Assembly: GCA_944322585.1 (NCBI GenBank)
Contig: CALUPB010000002.1
Span: forward strand, 192,729 to 256,728
DNA length: 64,000 bases
DNA from: an uncultured Bacteroidales bacterium
GTDB taxonomy: Bacteria; Bacteroidota; Bacteroidia; Bacteroidales; UBA932
Direction of reading: 5' to 3'
Shown here: positions 5,569-57,529 of the stretch, piece after piece
Position numbering within the stretch: position 1 is the first letter of the stretch
Layout of the letters: every line of letters starts with the position of its first letter
Translations under genes and position numbers: made by a program
Notes under the pieces: generated by a model
Database searches by the model: none
What the model saw: the letters and a program-made list of their open reading frames with translations, nothing else
Told to the model about the DNA's origin: nothing

Positions 5569-7074
5569 TTATTCTGCCGTATAAGGAATGTATTCGAATG
5601 AATCTATGGTCATCGAGCCGACTCCGGATTCTATACCGAAAAGATACTGGAATCCGGCCTGCGTACTGCTGGATGCCCACACATCACCGACATTCTGTCC
5701 TTCATCCGAAACAAGGACATCATTGATATAGACTTTTCTGGACAATCCATATGGTGTCGCTCCACCGGTTCTGGTTACAGGTTCCATAACAAGCTTGAGG
5801 GTCTCCATCTCGCTTGCAGAAGCAGGATAATCGTGGAACTGGACTGTATTGTTCCACAAGCCGCCCCAACCGTTGTCGAACCCGAAGCAATAGTTCTGCC
5901 CGTCTATAGAAACCGATCCTCCCGAGCCAAGCTGATGGTCGTTGTTCCCGAACCGTATCATGAGATAGCAGGCTCCCGCCCAGTTGTTCACTGTGAAATA
6001 CCCCGATTCCAGACTGACATCCGAGAATGTCCAGATGAATGTGCCGTATTTGAATGTATCGAAAGTCTTGACCCTTGCATTGCCCGAAACTGTCGTAGTA
6101 AGGGTAGCCCCGTCAAGCTGTGTAGCATCATTCTCCTTGGCCGTACATGAACCCTGGGTAACCGTCATGGTCTTCGGGTCGAGCGGCAGACTCGGGTCTT
6201 CAGGAGAAATGGTGATTACGGTCTCCTTGTCATAGATATATTTCGAATAAGGCAGCTGCACCGTGAATGAATTGCCGTCATCCGCCTTCGTCAGGACTGC
6301 TTCCTCATTGTCTGACGTCACTGTCCAGCCGACATTGGCCTCCACGCTATAGGTCTTCGTTTCACCCGCATAGCCGAACACGAGGTCGGTTTCAGGATTT
6401 TCAAGCGCACCGAACTCAAGCATCACCCCATCCTGGACGACATCGAACGACCTGGTCTCGAAACCGTTCTCTATCGTAACGGTAGCCGTCCTCCTCGCAC
6501 CTTCACTGAGCACGGCAGTTGCCGTAACTTCTACCGGTTCTCCGGTACCGTCCCCTCTGTCAGGAGTCAGAGTCAGCCACGTGGCGGACGGTGTGGCTGT
6601 CCATGGTTTGTTGGAACTTACGACAAACGTCGCAGAGCCTCCTTCCTGTGGAAGCATGTCGGCAAAAGGAATCACGGAAAGAACACCCTTGGCCTCCTGG
6701 ACTACCTTCACCGTTATCGGGGCATCCACCTCCTCTGCAGTTATGGTCAGGGTCGCCGTCCTGGACACTTCATCCGGATTGTCTTCTATATTCACCGTTA
6801 TCTCCTCGACCAGGGAGCTCGCCGCACTCATGGCCGGGTCGGGAAGGCACCACTGGGAATCCGTCCTGATTTCCCACGGAGTGTTGGAACTTACATTGAA
6901 AACTATCGCCCTCGGAGACGTGGCAATCGCCGTATACTCTTCAAGGGCATCCGTCTGTATAGAAGGTGCCTGCTCAGGCTGTGAATCTATGTCAGGTGCC
7001 ATAGTACACCCGTACGCCAGAAACGAGATGATCAAGGTTGCCGACAAGCCTGCGGCAATTCTGTTATTTTTCAT
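5569..7074 (-). CDS. BACON-domain surface lipoprotein (putative glycan-binding protein)
   Basis: 501 residues with a lipobox (LAYGC, Cys23). Three BACON-type repeats lie at about 40-130 (SSNTPWEIRTDSQWC), 140-215 (SSNKPWTATPSATWLTLTPD) and 220-310 (ANVGWTVTS). The C-terminal module of about 185 residues (315-500) is beta-rich with many aromatic residues and may bind sugar. Architecture and length match the next gene, so the two are probably diverged duplicates that bind parts of the same glycan. It follows the SusD gene, the usual place for surface glycan-binding proteins. No enzyme motif is visible. Confidence 0.82.
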   Translation of the reverse strand: MKNNRIAAGLSATLIISFLAYGCTMAPDIDSQPEQAPSIQTDALEEYTAIATSPRAIVFNVSSNTPWEIRTDSQWCLPDPAMSAASSLVEEITVNIEDNPDEVSRTATLTITAEEVDAPITVKVVQEAKGVLSVIPFADMLPQEGGSATFVVSSNKPWTATPSATWLTLTPDRGDGTGEPVEVTATAVLSEGARRTATVTIENGFETRSFDVVQDGVMLEFGALENPETDLVFGYAGETKTYSVEANVGWTVTSDNEEAVLTKADDGNSFTVQLPYSKYIYDKETVITISPEDPSLPLDPKTMTVTQGSCTAKENDATQLDGATLTTTVSGNARVKTFDTFKYGTFIWTFSDVSLESGYFTVNNWAGACYLMIRFGNNDHQLGSGGSVSIDGQNYCFGFDNGWGGLWNNTVQFHDYPASASEMETLKLVMEPVTRTGGATPYGLSRKVYINDVLVSDEGQNVGDVWASSSTQAGFQYLFGIESGVGSMTIDSFEYIPYTAE

Positions 7075-48126: not shown

Positions 48127-51100
48127 TTATTTCTTTCCTGCCAGTGCTGCCTTGGCCTCCTGTCTTTTCTTCACGGCCATGGTCGTATCATACATGATAG
48201 GTGTGGCGATGAAGATGGAAGCATATGTACCGATGGCGATACCGAGGCAGAGTGCGACTGCCATTCCCCTGATGACCTCGCCTCCGAAGATTGCGATTGC
48301 AATCATCACTATGAGAGTGGTAAGGGAGGTGTTCATTGTACGAGACAGCGTGCTGTTCAGAGCCTGGTTGGCATTGATCCTGAATTCCATCTTAGGGTGC
48401 AGTGTCTTGTATTCGCGGATACGGTCGAAGATGACCACGGTATCGTTGATTGCATAACCGATGATGGTCAGGATAGCCGCAATGAACGTCTGGTCGACAT
48501 CAAGGGTAAAAGGAAGTATTCCCGAGAAGAACGAGAAGAATCCGATCACGATGATTGCCGTATGCGCCAGACCGACGACTCCTCCGAGTCCCCATGTCCA
48601 GTTCTTGAACCGTACTGCAATGTAGGCGAAGATTACGAACAGGGCGATGATCACTGCTATGATGGCGGCTCTCTTCATGTCATTCGCCATTGTAGGACCC
48701 ACCTTGTCGGAACTTATGATACCGTTAGGGTTCTCCAATGTAGAGCGGAATTCGTCGAATGTGATGTCTTCCTTGAAGAATCCTTTCAGGGAGTCGTAAA
48801 GCATTTTCTCCACTTCAGCATCGGCATCCGTAGATTCGTCCTCTACCTTGTACTGGGTGGTGATCTTCATCTGGCTTTCGCCACCGAACTGCTTCACTTC
48901 CACGGCTCCGTCAAATGTGGCGACAGCTGCTTCCCTCACTTCCTCCGCATGAACAGGCTGGTCGAACCTTATCACGAAAGTACGGCCTCCTGTGAAGTCG
49001 ACACCGTAGGTGAAGCCCTTTATGCAGATAGAGCAGATGGATGCAAGCACCAGCACACTCGAAAGGATATATGTGATCTTTCTCTTGCTGAGGAAGTCGA
49101 CAGTGGTGTTCTGCAGGAAATTCCTTGTGAACTTGTTGGAGAATGTGATCTTCTTGCCCTTCTCAAGCCTGTCGTCGATGATGATCCTCGAGATGAAGAT
49201 TGAGGTAAGGACAGAAGTGATGATACCGATAATCAACGTGGTCGCAAATCCCTGTACAGGGCCGGAACCGAAGATGAAGAGCACGATACCTGTAAGGATG
49301 GTCGTCACCTGTCCGTCGATGATGGCCGAGTATGCATTGGAATAACCGTCTGCAACGGCCTTGCTGAGGCCTTTACCGGCCCGGATTTCCTCCTTGATAC
49401 GTTCGTAGATTATGACGTTCGCATCCACTGCCATACCGAGGGTCAGCACGAGACCGGCGATACCAGGAAGGGTGAGGACAGCTCCGAATGATACGAGAGA
49501 TCCAAGGAGAAGCAGCACGTTGCAGAGAAGGGCCGCATCGGCGATGAGGCCGGCTCCATGGTAGAATACGAACATGTATATCAGCACGAGCAGGAATGCT
49601 ATCGCAAATGATATGAGACCTGCGTTGATTGATTCAGATCCGAGGGAAGGTCCGACTATCTGTTCCTGGATGATGGTTGCAGGAGCAGGAAGCTTACCGG
49701 ACTTCAGTACGTTGGCAAGGTCTTCCGCCTCTTCGAGGTCGAAGTTACCGGTTATCTGGGAGCTTCCGCCTGTAATCTCCGTATTGACGACAGGGTAGGA
49801 ATATACCATCCCGTCGAGAACGATGGCGATCTGGCGGCCGATGTTGTCTTTGGTCATTCTTGCCCAGATGTTCGCTCCTTCCGCATTCATGGACATTGAG
49901 ACTTCAGGATTTCCGCCGGAATTGCCGTACTGGACACGGGCATCTGTCACTACGCCGCCGTCAAGAGGAGCCTTGCCGTCACGTGAAGTCGAGCGGATTG
50001 CCACGAGTTCATAGATGTTGCCGCCAGGGAATGCCTGAGAAGGCTTCACTGTCCACATAGCCTTGAACTCGGCAGGGAAAAGGGACTGTACCTGAGGCAG
50101 GTGCAGCCATGTGTTGATCTTTGCCGTATCTGCGTAGCTTGCATAACCGATGCATGCGCCTGTGGCGAGTCTTCCGTTGTATACTGCTGGCTGAAGGGCG
50201 GCGAAAAGCGGATTGGCTTTTCTGTAGGCCTCATCGTCTGCTCCTTCTGTTTCTGCCGCGCTGATCTCCTCGCTGAGGATGTCATCGGTGGAATCGGCAT
50301 CGGCAGTCTCTTCTCCGGAAGCCGCAGCTGTCTCCACAGTCAGGCTGTCACCTTCGGCGAGCAGGCCTGCAATCACTGAATTGGCCTCTTCGAGGAACGG
50401 ATATATTTCGCTGTTCTCGTAAGTTGCCCAGAACTCAAGCGATGCGGTACCCTGGAGCAGTTTCCTGACACGTTCAGGCTCCTTTACGCCCGGAAGCTCG
50501 ATAAGGATCCTTCCGCTGTTGCCGAGCTGCTGTATGTTAGGCTGTGTCACTCCGAAACGGTCGATACGGTTTCTCAGGACATTGAATGAATTGGAGATGG
50601 CGCTCTCTGCCTCGTCGCGTATTACATTGATGACCTCAGCGTCCGAAGTGGTGGAATTGATCTTGTCGTTCATTTCGTATGTCCCGAAAATCTGGGCAAG
50701 AGGGATTCCGTTTCCGACTTCGTTCCAGGCTTCTGCGAAGAGGGTGATGAAATCCGATCTTGAGTTGACGCTGCGCTCCTTGGCAAGTGCCAGGGCCTGT
50801 GTGAACTCCGGAGTCTGGTTGTTGTCCGCAAGGGCCTTTACCAGATCTTCGAGCTGTACCTGGAGCATTACGTTCATACCTCCCTTGAGGTCAAGTCCGA
50901 GGTTGATTTCCTTCTCTTTCACATCCTTGTAGGTGTACCCGAAATATACCTTTTCGGAAGAGATGGAGTCTATGTACCACCTGTTGTTTTCCCTCCTGAT
51001 GGAATCAAGGTAGAAAGCCTTGTCTACCTCAGGGACCTTGGCGAAGGCAGCCGAATTCTGATATGCCTCTACCGCTTTCTCCGCATATTTTGCCGCCTTG

Positions 51101-53139: not shown

Positions 53140-53162
53140 GAAACCGGTTTCCGATTTGCATT

Positions 53163-53332
53163 GCTCTCGGCTTTTGCGCAATTTGGCTTCGCCATATATA
53201 CTATGGCGCCTCGGCAAACCAAATAAATTTGTTCTGCTCTCGGCTTTTGCGCAATTTGGCTTCGCCATATATACTATGGCGCCTCGGCAAACCAAATAAA
53301 TTTGTTCTGCTCTCGGCTTTTGCGTATATTTG
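53163..53332 (+). repeat. 73-bp tandem repeat, about 2.3 copies, ending in a promoter
   Basis: Units begin GCTCTCGGCTTTTGCG at 53163, 53236 and 53309 (period 73). The first two are full and identical as far as read; the third is cut after 16 bases, where TATATTTG replaces CAATTTGG. Each full unit carries a hairpin CGCCATA/TATGGCG and a TTTG, 20 bases, GCAATTTG arrangement that looks like a weakened promoter. Only the last copy has a perfect -7 box. The short open frames across it are by-products of the repeat. Confidence 0.9.
53301..53332 (+). promoter_or_regulatory. nfeD-floA promoter (-33/-7), possibly leaderless
   Basis: TTTG (53301-53304), 20 bases, TATATTTG (53325-53332). The ATG of nfeD begins only 5 bases after the box, where transcription would start, so the mRNA may be leaderless. 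Confidence 0.75.
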
Positions 53333-55084: not shown

Positions 55085-55172
55085 GGTGAGATGGGTGAGT
55101 GGCTGAAACCAGCAGTTTGCTAAACTGCCGTACGGGATTACCGTACCGGGGGTTCGAATCCCCCTCTCACCG
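55085..55172 (+). tRNA. tRNA-Ser (anticodon GCU)
   Basis: 88 bases. The acceptor stem GGTGAGA (55085-55091) pairs with TCTCACC (55165-55171), with discriminator G. Anticodon stem GCAGT/ACTGC, loop TTGCTAA with GCT at 55119-55121. The long class II variable arm is CGTACGGGATTACCGTACC-like, and the T arm contains GGTTCGAATCC. CCA is not encoded. It reads AGC and AGU serine codons. Confidence 0.96.
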
Positions 55173-55182
55173 CAACCATGGA

Positions 55183-55298: not shown

Positions 55299-55690
55299 AA
55301 GGGCCTTCCCGGCGAGGGTTTGGGGATGTCGGAGCGTAGCGACGAAATCCCCCTCTCTACATACAACCGCCTCTTTTCTTGTTTCCAATCACCCAAATAA
55401 TCGCCCAATTTTCGCATCAACGAAAAATTTTCCCCGTGAGAGGTTTTAGATAGCAGTCATTTCCCCGATTACCTTATTGTCAGTACATAATTTGTAAAAT
55501 GATTATCCGCAAGAATATCCCTTCTATAAGATAAGTCTGACCGGCCAGTGAGAACTTACAGGAACGACATGGTATCACGTCCTGAAAACAGACGGAACGT
55601 CAGTCCTGCCAACCCTCCATATCCGGAACGGATACCGGTCTTTGACGGAAATCAGAGTCATGACTTCGAACCCAGAGACTTTAAATCTGT
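55299..55690. other. Gene-free segment right of the palindrome
   Basis: About 390 bases with no supported gene. It holds a hairpin GGGGAT/ATCCCC at about 55322-55353 and a 12-base copy of the tRNA-Ser 3' end (AATCCCCCTCTC, 55346-55357). The rest is featureless to me. Confidence 0.5.
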
Positions 55691-55697
55691 TTGGTGC

Positions 55698-55931
55698 ACA
55701 CCTGGAATTGGATAATACGCATAATCACATGTGGGATATATGTTTACATGATTTTGTCTCTTCCAGGTGTAACAGTTTCCGACACACCTGGAAGAGAGAA
55801 TCGCTCTCCGGCGGCAGCCAAAGGCACATCGGCAGTTCCAGGTGTGCTCAAAGATGTTACACCTGGAATTCAGAATAAAACATAATTTGCTTTAACTTAA
55901 AGAATTGTGCAACGGAACCATTTCCAGGTGT
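55698..55931. repeat. Symmetric array of six alternating 10-bp repeats
   Basis: ACACCTGGAA or its complement TTCCAGGTGT occurs exactly at 55698 (+), 55761 (-), 55784 (+), 55836 (-), 55859 (+) and 55922 (-). Spacers are 53, 13, 42, 13 and 53 bases: mirror-symmetric about 55814.5, although the spacer sequences are not complementary. The 55757-55797 pair extends to a 14-bp stem (TCTC/GAGA added). No coding frame fits. The array lies just left of the Rpn gene. Confidence 0.9.
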
Positions 55932-56082
55932 GTCACTGTTCACACAGTATGGCAGTAAACATGAACATTCATACTTCCTGGCCGGGAAAACATGACAATA
56001 GAAGTCAGGGGTAACTTTGCGGATAGCATTATTTGTAATCAGAAAATTCGTCTTCTTCTCGGAAAACCCGTCAATTTGGGTA

Positions 56083-57021
56083 TCAGAGTTTCTCAATATC
56101 TTTCGGAGTCAGTCCAGTAACGGAAGCTACGGTCAAGGTATCGATACCTTTTCCGATCATGGCTTTCGCAATCCGTAACTGTTCCTCTTTTCTTCCTTCA
56201 GCCCTGCCTTCCGTGAGTCCCTCTGCCCTGCCTTTAGCTTCACCTTCTTCAAGCCCTTCGGCCCGGTAGGTGTTAAGGATATTCGTATAGTCACGTTCGG
56301 TCATCATATCGTGTTCGTATTCCAGTTTCTCTTCAGGGGTGAACCTCGCTATCTCACACGCCTCGAACAGCCGCTCGAACACCTGCACCCGCAGCTCCTC
56401 CGGCAACCTCTCCATCCTCCCCATGTGTTTCATCGAATAGAACCACTTCTCCGCCATGCTCCCGCACTCCTCAAGCTCCTTGTCGAAACGGTCCAGTTCC
56501 ACAAAGTTAAGAAAAATCGTCTCATCCACCACTTCGTGGCTGACTTTTTCGCGGAAAGTATATTCGGAGACATACCTGTCCCTCCAGATTTCGTTGTCGC
56601 TCCTGTCGAACTTCGGCACACCGGTATTCAGCAGACCGACAAAATACACCGGAGGGATGTCGTATCCGTGTCCGTCCCCGCGTTCTGAACCGGAGTCATA
56701 GACCTTTGCGGCATACTCCACGCATCTTCTGAAGAAATTGAGCTGACGGTAGCACTGCATCTCGACGATGAACTGAGTCCCGTCCACGCCTGTACATCTG
56801 AGGTCAAGCCTGACGCTCTTGTTTGACATGGTAAATCCCGGTATCTCCGTCGTTGAATATGCGAGGTCGGTGACCCTTCGGTGTTCCGGAAGCACGACGT
56901 TCAGCAGGGCGATGAGTACGTCCTTGTTCTTCTCCACCCCGAAGACGGCCTTGAAGCCGGCTTCTGTCAGGATGTCCACATATCTCTGTGCGGATGTCCG
57001 TGTTTCATTCATACTCTCCAT
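56083..57021 (-). CDS. Rpn family recombination-promoting nuclease / PD-(D/E)XK transposase-like protein
   Basis: 312 residues. The N-terminal YVDILTEAGFKAVFGVEKNKDVLIALLNVVLP is the family opening. The PD-(D/E)XK core shows RLDLRCTGVDGTQFIVEMQCY with Asp73, Glu87 and Gln89, then RCVEYAAKVYDSG. The C-terminus holds glycine/glutamate repeats (AEGLEEGEAKGRAEGLTEGRAEG) and a helical tail ending TGLTPKDIEKL. E. coli Rpn proteins cleave DNA and promote RecA-independent recombination. A second start at 57012 is possible. The copy is intact. It is flanked by the 10-bp repeats in inverted orientation. Confidence 0.92.
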   Translation of the reverse strand: MESMNETRTSAQRYVDILTEAGFKAVFGVEKNKDVLIALLNVVLPEHRRVTDLAYSTTEIPGFTMSNKSVRLDLRCTGVDGTQFIVEMQCYRQLNFFRRCVEYAAKVYDSGSERGDGHGYDIPPVYFVGLLNTGVPKFDRSDNEIWRDRYVSEYTFREKVSHEVVDETIFLNFVELDRFDKELEECGSMAEKWFYSMKHMGRMERLPEELRVQVFERLFEACEIARFTPEEKLEYEHDMMTERDYTNILNTYRAEGLEEGEAKGRAEGLTEGRAEGRKEEQLRIAKAMIGKGIDTLTVASVTGLTPKDIEKL

Positions 57022-57456
57022 ATATCCAATACTGTTATTTTATTCCTATCCGCATTATTACCCCTAAAAGGGAACCGGACCGAGAAGTTCGGACGGCGTG
57101 GCCGCCCGTGGCCTCGTGAACGGGAGGGACCCGCGACGGAGTCGTGGGAGGGATTTACCGGACCGAACTTTTACGGTCTGGTTATCCAAGGGGTATTCTT
57201 GCGGATAATCATTCAAACTTTTTTGCGCTAAAATATGGAGGCATAGAATACCTGTCAATACCCCGGGAACAGGTTTATACGAATCGGGACAGGATTTTTT
57301 CTCTTTTTTACTGTTTTTGCTTTTTTTATGATGTCTTTTTGAGTATTTGCCTTATCACGGTTCTTGAGGAAAGCATTCATGACAGTCCCGTTAATGGATA
57401 TTTTTGCAGATGGGCATTAAAAAGACACTTTGTCAATTCCGGGTATGTACAATGTT

Positions 57457-57466
57457 GCACCTGGAA
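57457..57466 (+). repeat. Seventh copy of the 10-bp repeat, right of rpn
   Basis: GCACCTGGAA (9 of 10). Together with flanking bases it matches the copy at 55859 over about 24 positions with few changes. With TTCCAGGTGT at 55922 it forms an inverted pair around the Rpn gene. Confidence 0.7.
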
Positions 57467-57529
57467 TTCAGGATCAACCGGGATTTACAAAACAGGTAGG
57501 CCTGTCCAACCTCCTGACATGATGATTTT

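Follow-up and report, generated by a model that had tools for sequence, protein, structure and literature searches.

Inverted doublets of REP sequences (REPINs) and the hairpins excised from them have been described (PMC3116915), and for TnpA_REP a tyrosine-dependent cutting of single strands has been reported (PMC8266576). In the latter source, the RAYTs studied biochemically are those of GTAG systems from E. coli, Stenotrophomonas and Marinomonas. Two other groups lie close to the system considered here. TnpA_Y1 subclass 2.6, equivalent to RAYT group 5, is found mostly in Bacteroidetes, and its genes are described only as flanked by "atypical secondary structures" without GT[AG]G (PMC6006769). 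In TIRtrons (TIRYT), RAYT-like genes are flanked by longer repeats that are not of the GTAG type, and some of these repeats are dispersed in dimers or clusters (PMC3733652). The array presented below resembles the REP/REPIN repeats, in an unusually rigid form. In the open-licence literature no published description of a six-site array was found in the main texts; the supplementary table of PMC6006769 may hold one.

The window, that is the whole stretch of 64,000 nucleotides analysed, contains a 234-bp array of six sites, each of them ACACCTGGAA or its complement (Table 1). With uniform bases and both strands counted, chance alone predicts 0.12 exact matches to this core in 64 kb. The initial annotation had reported six exact sites in alternating orientation with mirror-symmetric gaps, and both features were recovered: the sites lie at the same positions and in the same orientations, and the gaps, measured again, are 53-13-42-13-53 between sites (63-23-52-23-63 from start to start). 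Its description of the spacers as unrelated did not hold, as the two halves of the window array agree at 38 of the 87 spacer positions (shuffle mean 22.8, p 0.001), and the loop GCTCAAAGATGTT is an inverted relative of the loop AACAGTTTCCGAC, with agreement at 7 of 13 positions in the window copy.

Table 1. Features of the array locus in the window (positions refer to the window)
Feature	Position	Strand	Remarks
Six-site array, 234 bp	55698..55931		Two inverted half units with three sites each; the sites are ACACCTGGAA or its complement
Site 1, outer end	55698..55707	+	ACACCTGGAA, exact match
Site 2	55761..55770	-	Exact match
Site 3	55784..55793	+	Exact match; 13-base loop AACAGTTTCCGAC between sites 2 and 3
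Site 4	55836..55845	-	Exact match
Site 5	55859..55868	+	Exact match; 13-base loop GCTCAAAGATGTT between sites 4 and 5
Site 6, outer end	55922..55931	-	Exact match
Left copy of the 8-bp direct repeat of the 533-bp element	55490..55497		ATTTGTAA
533-bp element	55498..56030		Terminal inverted repeats AATG..TATCCGCAA; array inside
Right copy of the 8-bp direct repeat	56031..56038		ATTTGTAA
Rpn / PDDEXK_2 gene, 312 aa	56083..57021	-	Pfam PDDEXK_2 E 4.5e-44; NCBIfam Rpn E 1.7e-29
161-bp element upstream of the Rpn gene	57047..57207		Same kind of ends as the 533-bp element
Decayed remnant of another array, sites 4-5	57421..57477 (C2:250149-250205)	+	Similarity to window 55820-55879

The window array is one copy of a dispersed 234-bp palindrome and not a private array of the neighbouring Rpn gene. 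The assembly to which it belongs (G000) comprises 33 contigs and 2.87 Mb. It contains 12 occurrences of the paired pattern and 50 of the 10-mer, and near some of the single 10-mers there is nothing that resembles an array. Seven full six-site arrays are present, at C2:82596, C2:248426 (the window copy), C3:64189, C3:69011, C3:70442, C5:62505 and C15:3709, together with four partial copies on contigs C4, C10, C24 and C26. Both C2 arrays, C3:64189, the C5 array and the partial copies have sequence in common beyond the array, while at C3:69011, C3:70442 and C15:3709 the shared sequence consists of the array only. The junctions of the partial copies join sites of the same orientation exactly (2 to 6 in C26, 1 to 5 in C24, 4 to 6 in C10 and 1 to 3 in C4), and in all four copies the pieces overlap by 10-12 bp at the site-to-site junction; slippage could equally yield such junctions. 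The C4 copy has a further junction, away from any site.

Thirty-eight six-site arrays, from 40 loci in seven genomes, can be aligned without gaps. They were picked with the inner offsets fixed and the outer sites allowed to move by +-1, leaving out the deletion derivatives on C4, C10, C24 and C26 and the decayed arrays in L192, L200 and L204. The first start-to-start distance is 63 in 35 arrays, 62 in two and 64 in one, and the fifth is 63 in all 38; an unconstrained look is provided by the loci of the relatives, which were chosen by the 23-base pair alone, the distances 63 and 52 being free. The median pairwise identity is 85% in the sites, 47% in the spacers and 28% in the 60-base flanks, and the spacers are less than 50% identical in 478 of the 703 array pairs. 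This alignment suggests that the spacing is under constraint, or that the unit is always copied whole. Conservation stops at the outer sites, save for a GC just outside, so that the unit is the 234-bp array itself. When the right half is reverse-complemented, it matches the left half at 31-42 of the 87 spacer positions in the seven full arrays of the own genome (expected 22.3-23.0), with p values from 0/2000 shuffles to 0.0165, and the consensus over the 38 arrays reads aACAttTt.cGgC in loop 1 and, reversed,.ACAttTt...GC in loop 2. Since the spacers agree between the halves, an inverted duplication is the origin of the mirror symmetry.

Two of the seven full arrays, C3:69011-69243 and C3:70442-70674, lie in the same orientation on either side of a RAYT-like HUH/Y1 gene (RAYT-A; C3:69424-70299, 291 aa), at 180 and 142 bp respectively. 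In single-protein profile searches RAYT-A matches REP_Tyr_transpos with E 1.9e-7 (31 bits, below the cut-off of 80) and Y1_Tnp with E 2.1e-4 (21.8 bits, cut-off 23); in the whole-genome search the Y1_Tnp score is 23.6 bits, just over the cut-off of 23. The protein has an HVH motif at residues 51-53 and tyrosines at 110 and 112, with an HUH-Y distance of about 57-59 residues. HVH 51-53 and Y110 are invariant across six aligned RAYTs and, judging from the family, would be the catalytic residues. Modelled with AlphaFold, a RAYT orthologue gave a poor structure (mean pLDDT 49), in which the order of strands and helices near the HUH and Y motifs looks similar to the Y1 topology. Solved structures gave no match to the RAYT profile at E values up to 1.

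The whole-genome profile search revealed three Y1_Tnp genes in the own genome. A second RAYT-like gene, C2:156-1175, has a repeat of its own, TGCCAGGTCT-N13-AGACCTGGAA with a 73-base period, which lies about 55 bases away on one side of the gene and 1.3 kb away, beyond another ORF, on the other. Tandem 73-base hairpin arrays of this second RAYT are also found about 60 bases from the C15 array and abutting the C26 partial copy (L051:4001-4483, L053:1-337). Around the third gene, RAYT-C (C1:102416), no 8-mer family with at least four copies in both orientations was found within a 14-kb stretch.

RAYT homologues (E <= 1e-10) are widespread in the genus, being present in 321 of 400 genomes, and close relatives of RAYT-A are few: proteins 57-61% identical to it occur in three of the 399 other genomes (G386, G029 and G379), and the next one is 39% identical. 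The loci were scanned with a template of six oriented 10-mers at the spacing of the window array, with any core and a maximum score of 60. All four RAYT-A genes adjoin a six-site template, on both sides in three cases and on one side in G386; the scores are 58 and 59 in the own genome, 56 in G386, 52 and 54 in G029, and 55 and 55 in G379. Elsewhere the scores reach at most 46 (the other 28 RAYT loci) and 43 (29 Rpn loci of relatives). The core is ACACCTGGAA in the own genome and mostly ACACCTGCAG in the orthologous systems, where the sites end mostly in CAG or GAA, in a common order. The exact-core pattern was absent from all of 100 other genus genomes because the core drifts, and a relaxed pattern is needed. 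RAYT-A and its arrays are found in three different neighbourhoods across the four genomes; by nucleotide BLAST between the loci, only the RAYT gene itself is shared, except in the near pair G029/G379.

The relaxed pair CAGGTGT-N13-ACACCTG is present in 26 of the 400 genus genomes. All four genomes with RAYT-A have it (14 copies in G000, 9 in G386, 14 in G029 and 7 in G379), compared with 22 of the 396 others (Fisher p 1.4e-5, kinship ignored), and at least five copies are found in 4/4 versus 3/396 (Fisher p 3e-8, again ignoring kinship). One of these three, G187, has different loops. Among the matches listed, copies with a loop of the RAYT-A type occur in G053 (18 matches, five of which were listed, within three stretches retrieved), G068 (5) and G075 (2). 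In these three array-bearing genomes (completeness 91, 96 and 77%, respectively) a homologue search at E <= 1e-10 found no RAYT-A orthologue. In the other 19 genomes with the pair the loops differ, judged by eye among the matches listed.

Repeat families with other cores are common at more distant RAYT loci. An 8-mer family with at least four copies, in both orientations and within 420 bases, was found at 14 of 30 RAYT loci versus 5 of 29 Rpn loci (Fisher p 0.015), and one with at least five copies at 8/30 versus 0/29 (Fisher p 0.003), the 30 RAYT loci, the own locus L098 among them, being the highest-scoring entries in a longer list of matches. Shuffled sequences reached four copies in 3/300 and 1/290 cases for the RAYT and Rpn sets, respectively.

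The likeness to REP sequences and their RAYT transposases proposed in the initial annotation is therefore nearly literal in one respect, as the arrays flank a RAYT-like gene in this genome and adjoin its orthologues in three others; the part of the proposal that took Rpn as the partner finds no support. As in REPINs, an inverted doublet (7/7 full arrays of the own genome) is predicted to fold as one hairpin (both strands of the window copy), the copies are dispersed, repeats lie beside the cognate HUH/Y1 gene and there is one repeat family per RAYT. The differences concern the architecture and the copy number: each half contains three 10-base sites, whereas a REPIN half has one REP; the unit is 234 bp long with fixed spacing and 13-base loops, whereas the GI doublet of P. 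fluorescens measures 71 bp between first residues (PMC3116915); and only 7-14 paired-site matches per genome were counted in the four RAYT-A genomes. The array does not belong to the canonical GTAG REPs, as the GT[AG]G foot is missing from all 456 site feet in the 38 arrays.

What PMC6006769 says of subclass 2.6 agrees with the present system in the Bacteroidetes host, in flanking repeats without GT[AG]G and in further copies elsewhere in the genome. On the other hand, the HUH-Y distance of 57-59 residues compares with a median of 82 given there, which is a median and not a limit of membership, and the six-site geometry does not appear in the description of the subclass in the main text of that paper. 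Compared by description, the system works like a REPtron and fits the account given of subclass 2.6, yet on description alone, and with an HUH-Y distance below the subclass median, it is not filed there. TIRtrons, as presented in PMC3733652, share with it the longer non-GTAG repeats at RAYT-like genes and the dispersed families, but their repeats are inverted around the gene, whereas here whole arrays, each of them palindromic in itself, stand in direct orientation.

From these data it is likely that the array is a dispersed, non-autonomous REPIN-like element of Bacteroidales mobilised by RAYT-A, which is encoded elsewhere in the genome, and that the window copy was carried by the 533-bp element. 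A single strand of the 234-bp inverted dimer would fold by pairing sites 1-6, 2-5 and 3-4, with symmetric internal loops of 53 and 13 bases. RAYT-A would recognise this folded strand, for example on the lagging strand, and would cut and rejoin at or near the sites; action on a folded array is proposed because the REPIN and TnpA_REP papers describe analogous doublets, hairpins and cutting. Such activity would spread the element and occasionally leave internal site-to-site deletions. The exact junctions in the four partial copies and the three neighbourhoods occupied by RAYT-A with its arrays are signs in favour, whereas the failure to find a clean empty site, and the three array-bearing genomes in which no orthologue was detected, speak against. 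The window copy would then have been carried inside the 533-bp element, ending beside an unrelated Rpn gene, in what is presumably the order of events. A more tentative idea, possible but rather doubtful, is that the six-site, three-tier palindrome is a REPIN of new architecture, a geometric substrate for an assembly of several RAYT subunits and no simple hairpin, so that the complex would have to engage several stacked hairpins at exact distances before cutting, with a core that drifts together with the enzyme under an unchanged geometry; each half may give one site two possible partners, across the 13-base or the 53-base loop.

The fold itself is plausible, not proven. The window strand is predicted to form the nested stems 1-6, 2-5 and 3-4 with -52.4 kcal/mol, against -27.0 for shuffled sequences (z -6.8), and the opposite strand gives z -6.3. 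Co-variation is high in the 3-4 stem (z 5.3), but the 2-5 and 1-6 pairs lack it (z -0.7 and 0.9) and pairs outside the fold score nearly as high (3-6, z 4.6; 4-6, a direct pair that is not pairable, z 4.7), which is why the fold is held to be only plausible. The sites could instead be double-stranded binding sites for a dimeric protein, such as a regulator, a nucleoid protein or the C-terminal part of the RAYT, the spacing then reflecting helical phasing. Two of the three nested pairs being without co-variation is consistent with this, as are the changes that several arrays carry in one site and that are absent from its fold partner; besides, the DNA helix has 10.5 bp per turn, so the distances 63 and 52 are near six and five turns. 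Nevertheless, the distance 23 does not correspond to an integral number of turns, the inverted dimer and the nested fold account for the mirror symmetry without any regulator, and the arrays occur next to each of the four RAYT-A genes as well as in many places where no common neighbour gene was noticed. Binding to the duplex is for these reasons considered unlikely, and a single-stranded, RAYT-mobilised element is preferred.

The 533-bp element that encloses the window array is bounded by terminal inverted repeats and flanked by 8-bp direct repeats (Table 1), and relatives of this element, in the form of longer copies, lie on C2, C3 and C10 of the own genome. The window copy probably moved as a passenger of it. 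If the whole family were nothing else than a passenger of elements with TATCCGCAA-type ends that owe their spread to an ordinary transposase from a different family, the direct repeats around the window copy and the flanks shared by several own copies would be explained, and 8 of the 32 array loci of other genomes (L177, L178, L179, L192, L193, L197, L201 and L202) do have the GC-rich middle of the 161-bp element no more than about 130 bp away from the array. This general form of the passenger explanation is very improbable, since the 533-bp element's arms turned up at 0/32 array loci of the six other genomes and are absent from the own arrays C3:69011, C3:70442 and C15:3709. Mobilisation by RAYT-A, with the 533-bp element as the carrier of the window copy, remains the preferred explanation. 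On C3, an array-bearing element is located between a gene for an AraC-like regulator and a close copy of that gene (L048:3995-4723 and 5772-6500).

Regarding the insertion loci, no clean empty site of the array was found among the seven loci tested: in two the array is conserved in a relative, in two it is missing as part of a larger insertion, and three are undecided. A tRNA gene is located no more than about 700 bases from the array at 8 of the 40 loci (the window, L050, L173, L174, L175, L176, L194 and L196), and in 8/8 the array lies 3' of the tRNA; because the tRNA-Val regions of L174 and L175 are related, these amount to about seven independent loci. In the window this gene is a tRNA-Ser (55085-55173), besides which no known RNA family was detected between positions 50000 and 64000. 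At L194:2230-3160 (G379) a tRNA-His is followed downstream by an island about 850 bases long that G053 lacks; it ends in a 22-base copy of the tRNA anticodon region, like an integration site. The flanks of L173 (C2 of G029) match different contigs in two relatives, and places 39 kb apart in one, as if the array marked a point of rearrangement. Between an NfeD-like gene and a 593-aa ORF, the window also contains a 73-base tandem repeat (53162-53332) of 2.3 copies with 97% matches.

The gene next to the window array encodes a protein of the Rpn / PDDEXK_2 putative transposases, about 150 bp away. The seventh copy of the core, thought to frame this gene as a terminal repeat, exists at 57457 with one mismatch, GCACCTGGAA, and shows no sign of being a terminal repeat of Rpn; it is part of a decayed array fragment (75% match, E 0.0016). 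The initial annotation had suggested looking for 13-base-spaced pairs clustered at rpn genes; by the six-site template none of the relatives' 29 Rpn loci fits, and no site or array lies near a second, broken Rpn gene on C8. On these grounds Rpn as the partner of the array was rejected. In these tests the array family showed no link to Rpn, save for 3 of 40 array loci, in three genomes, which hold Rpn sequence (at about 150 bp in the window, 2.1 kb in L178 and 160 bp in L200); by a rough estimate fewer than one such locus would arise by chance, and intergenic islands rich in repeats, shared by both, may be the reason. That the array belongs to Rpn, as a palindrome unit controlled or mobilised by it, is hardly credible: these three loci and the decayed fragment on the far side of the window gene speak for it, whereas the genome has seven full arrays and a single intact Rpn, the broken Rpn has the same 161-bp upstream element yet no array, and neither the template nor an 8-mer family with at least five copies is found at Rpn loci, in contrast to the RAYT loci. 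Most likely, Rpn is a bystander of the array.

The array and RAYT-A together offer a candidate substrate with conserved geometry, natural variants of the core, four matched RAYTs and natural deletion derivatives. With this material, substrate recognition in the Bacteroidetes branch of the RAYTs becomes directly testable. The locus also illustrates that a striking symmetry need not belong to the gene beside it; its enzyme can be encoded at a distant place.
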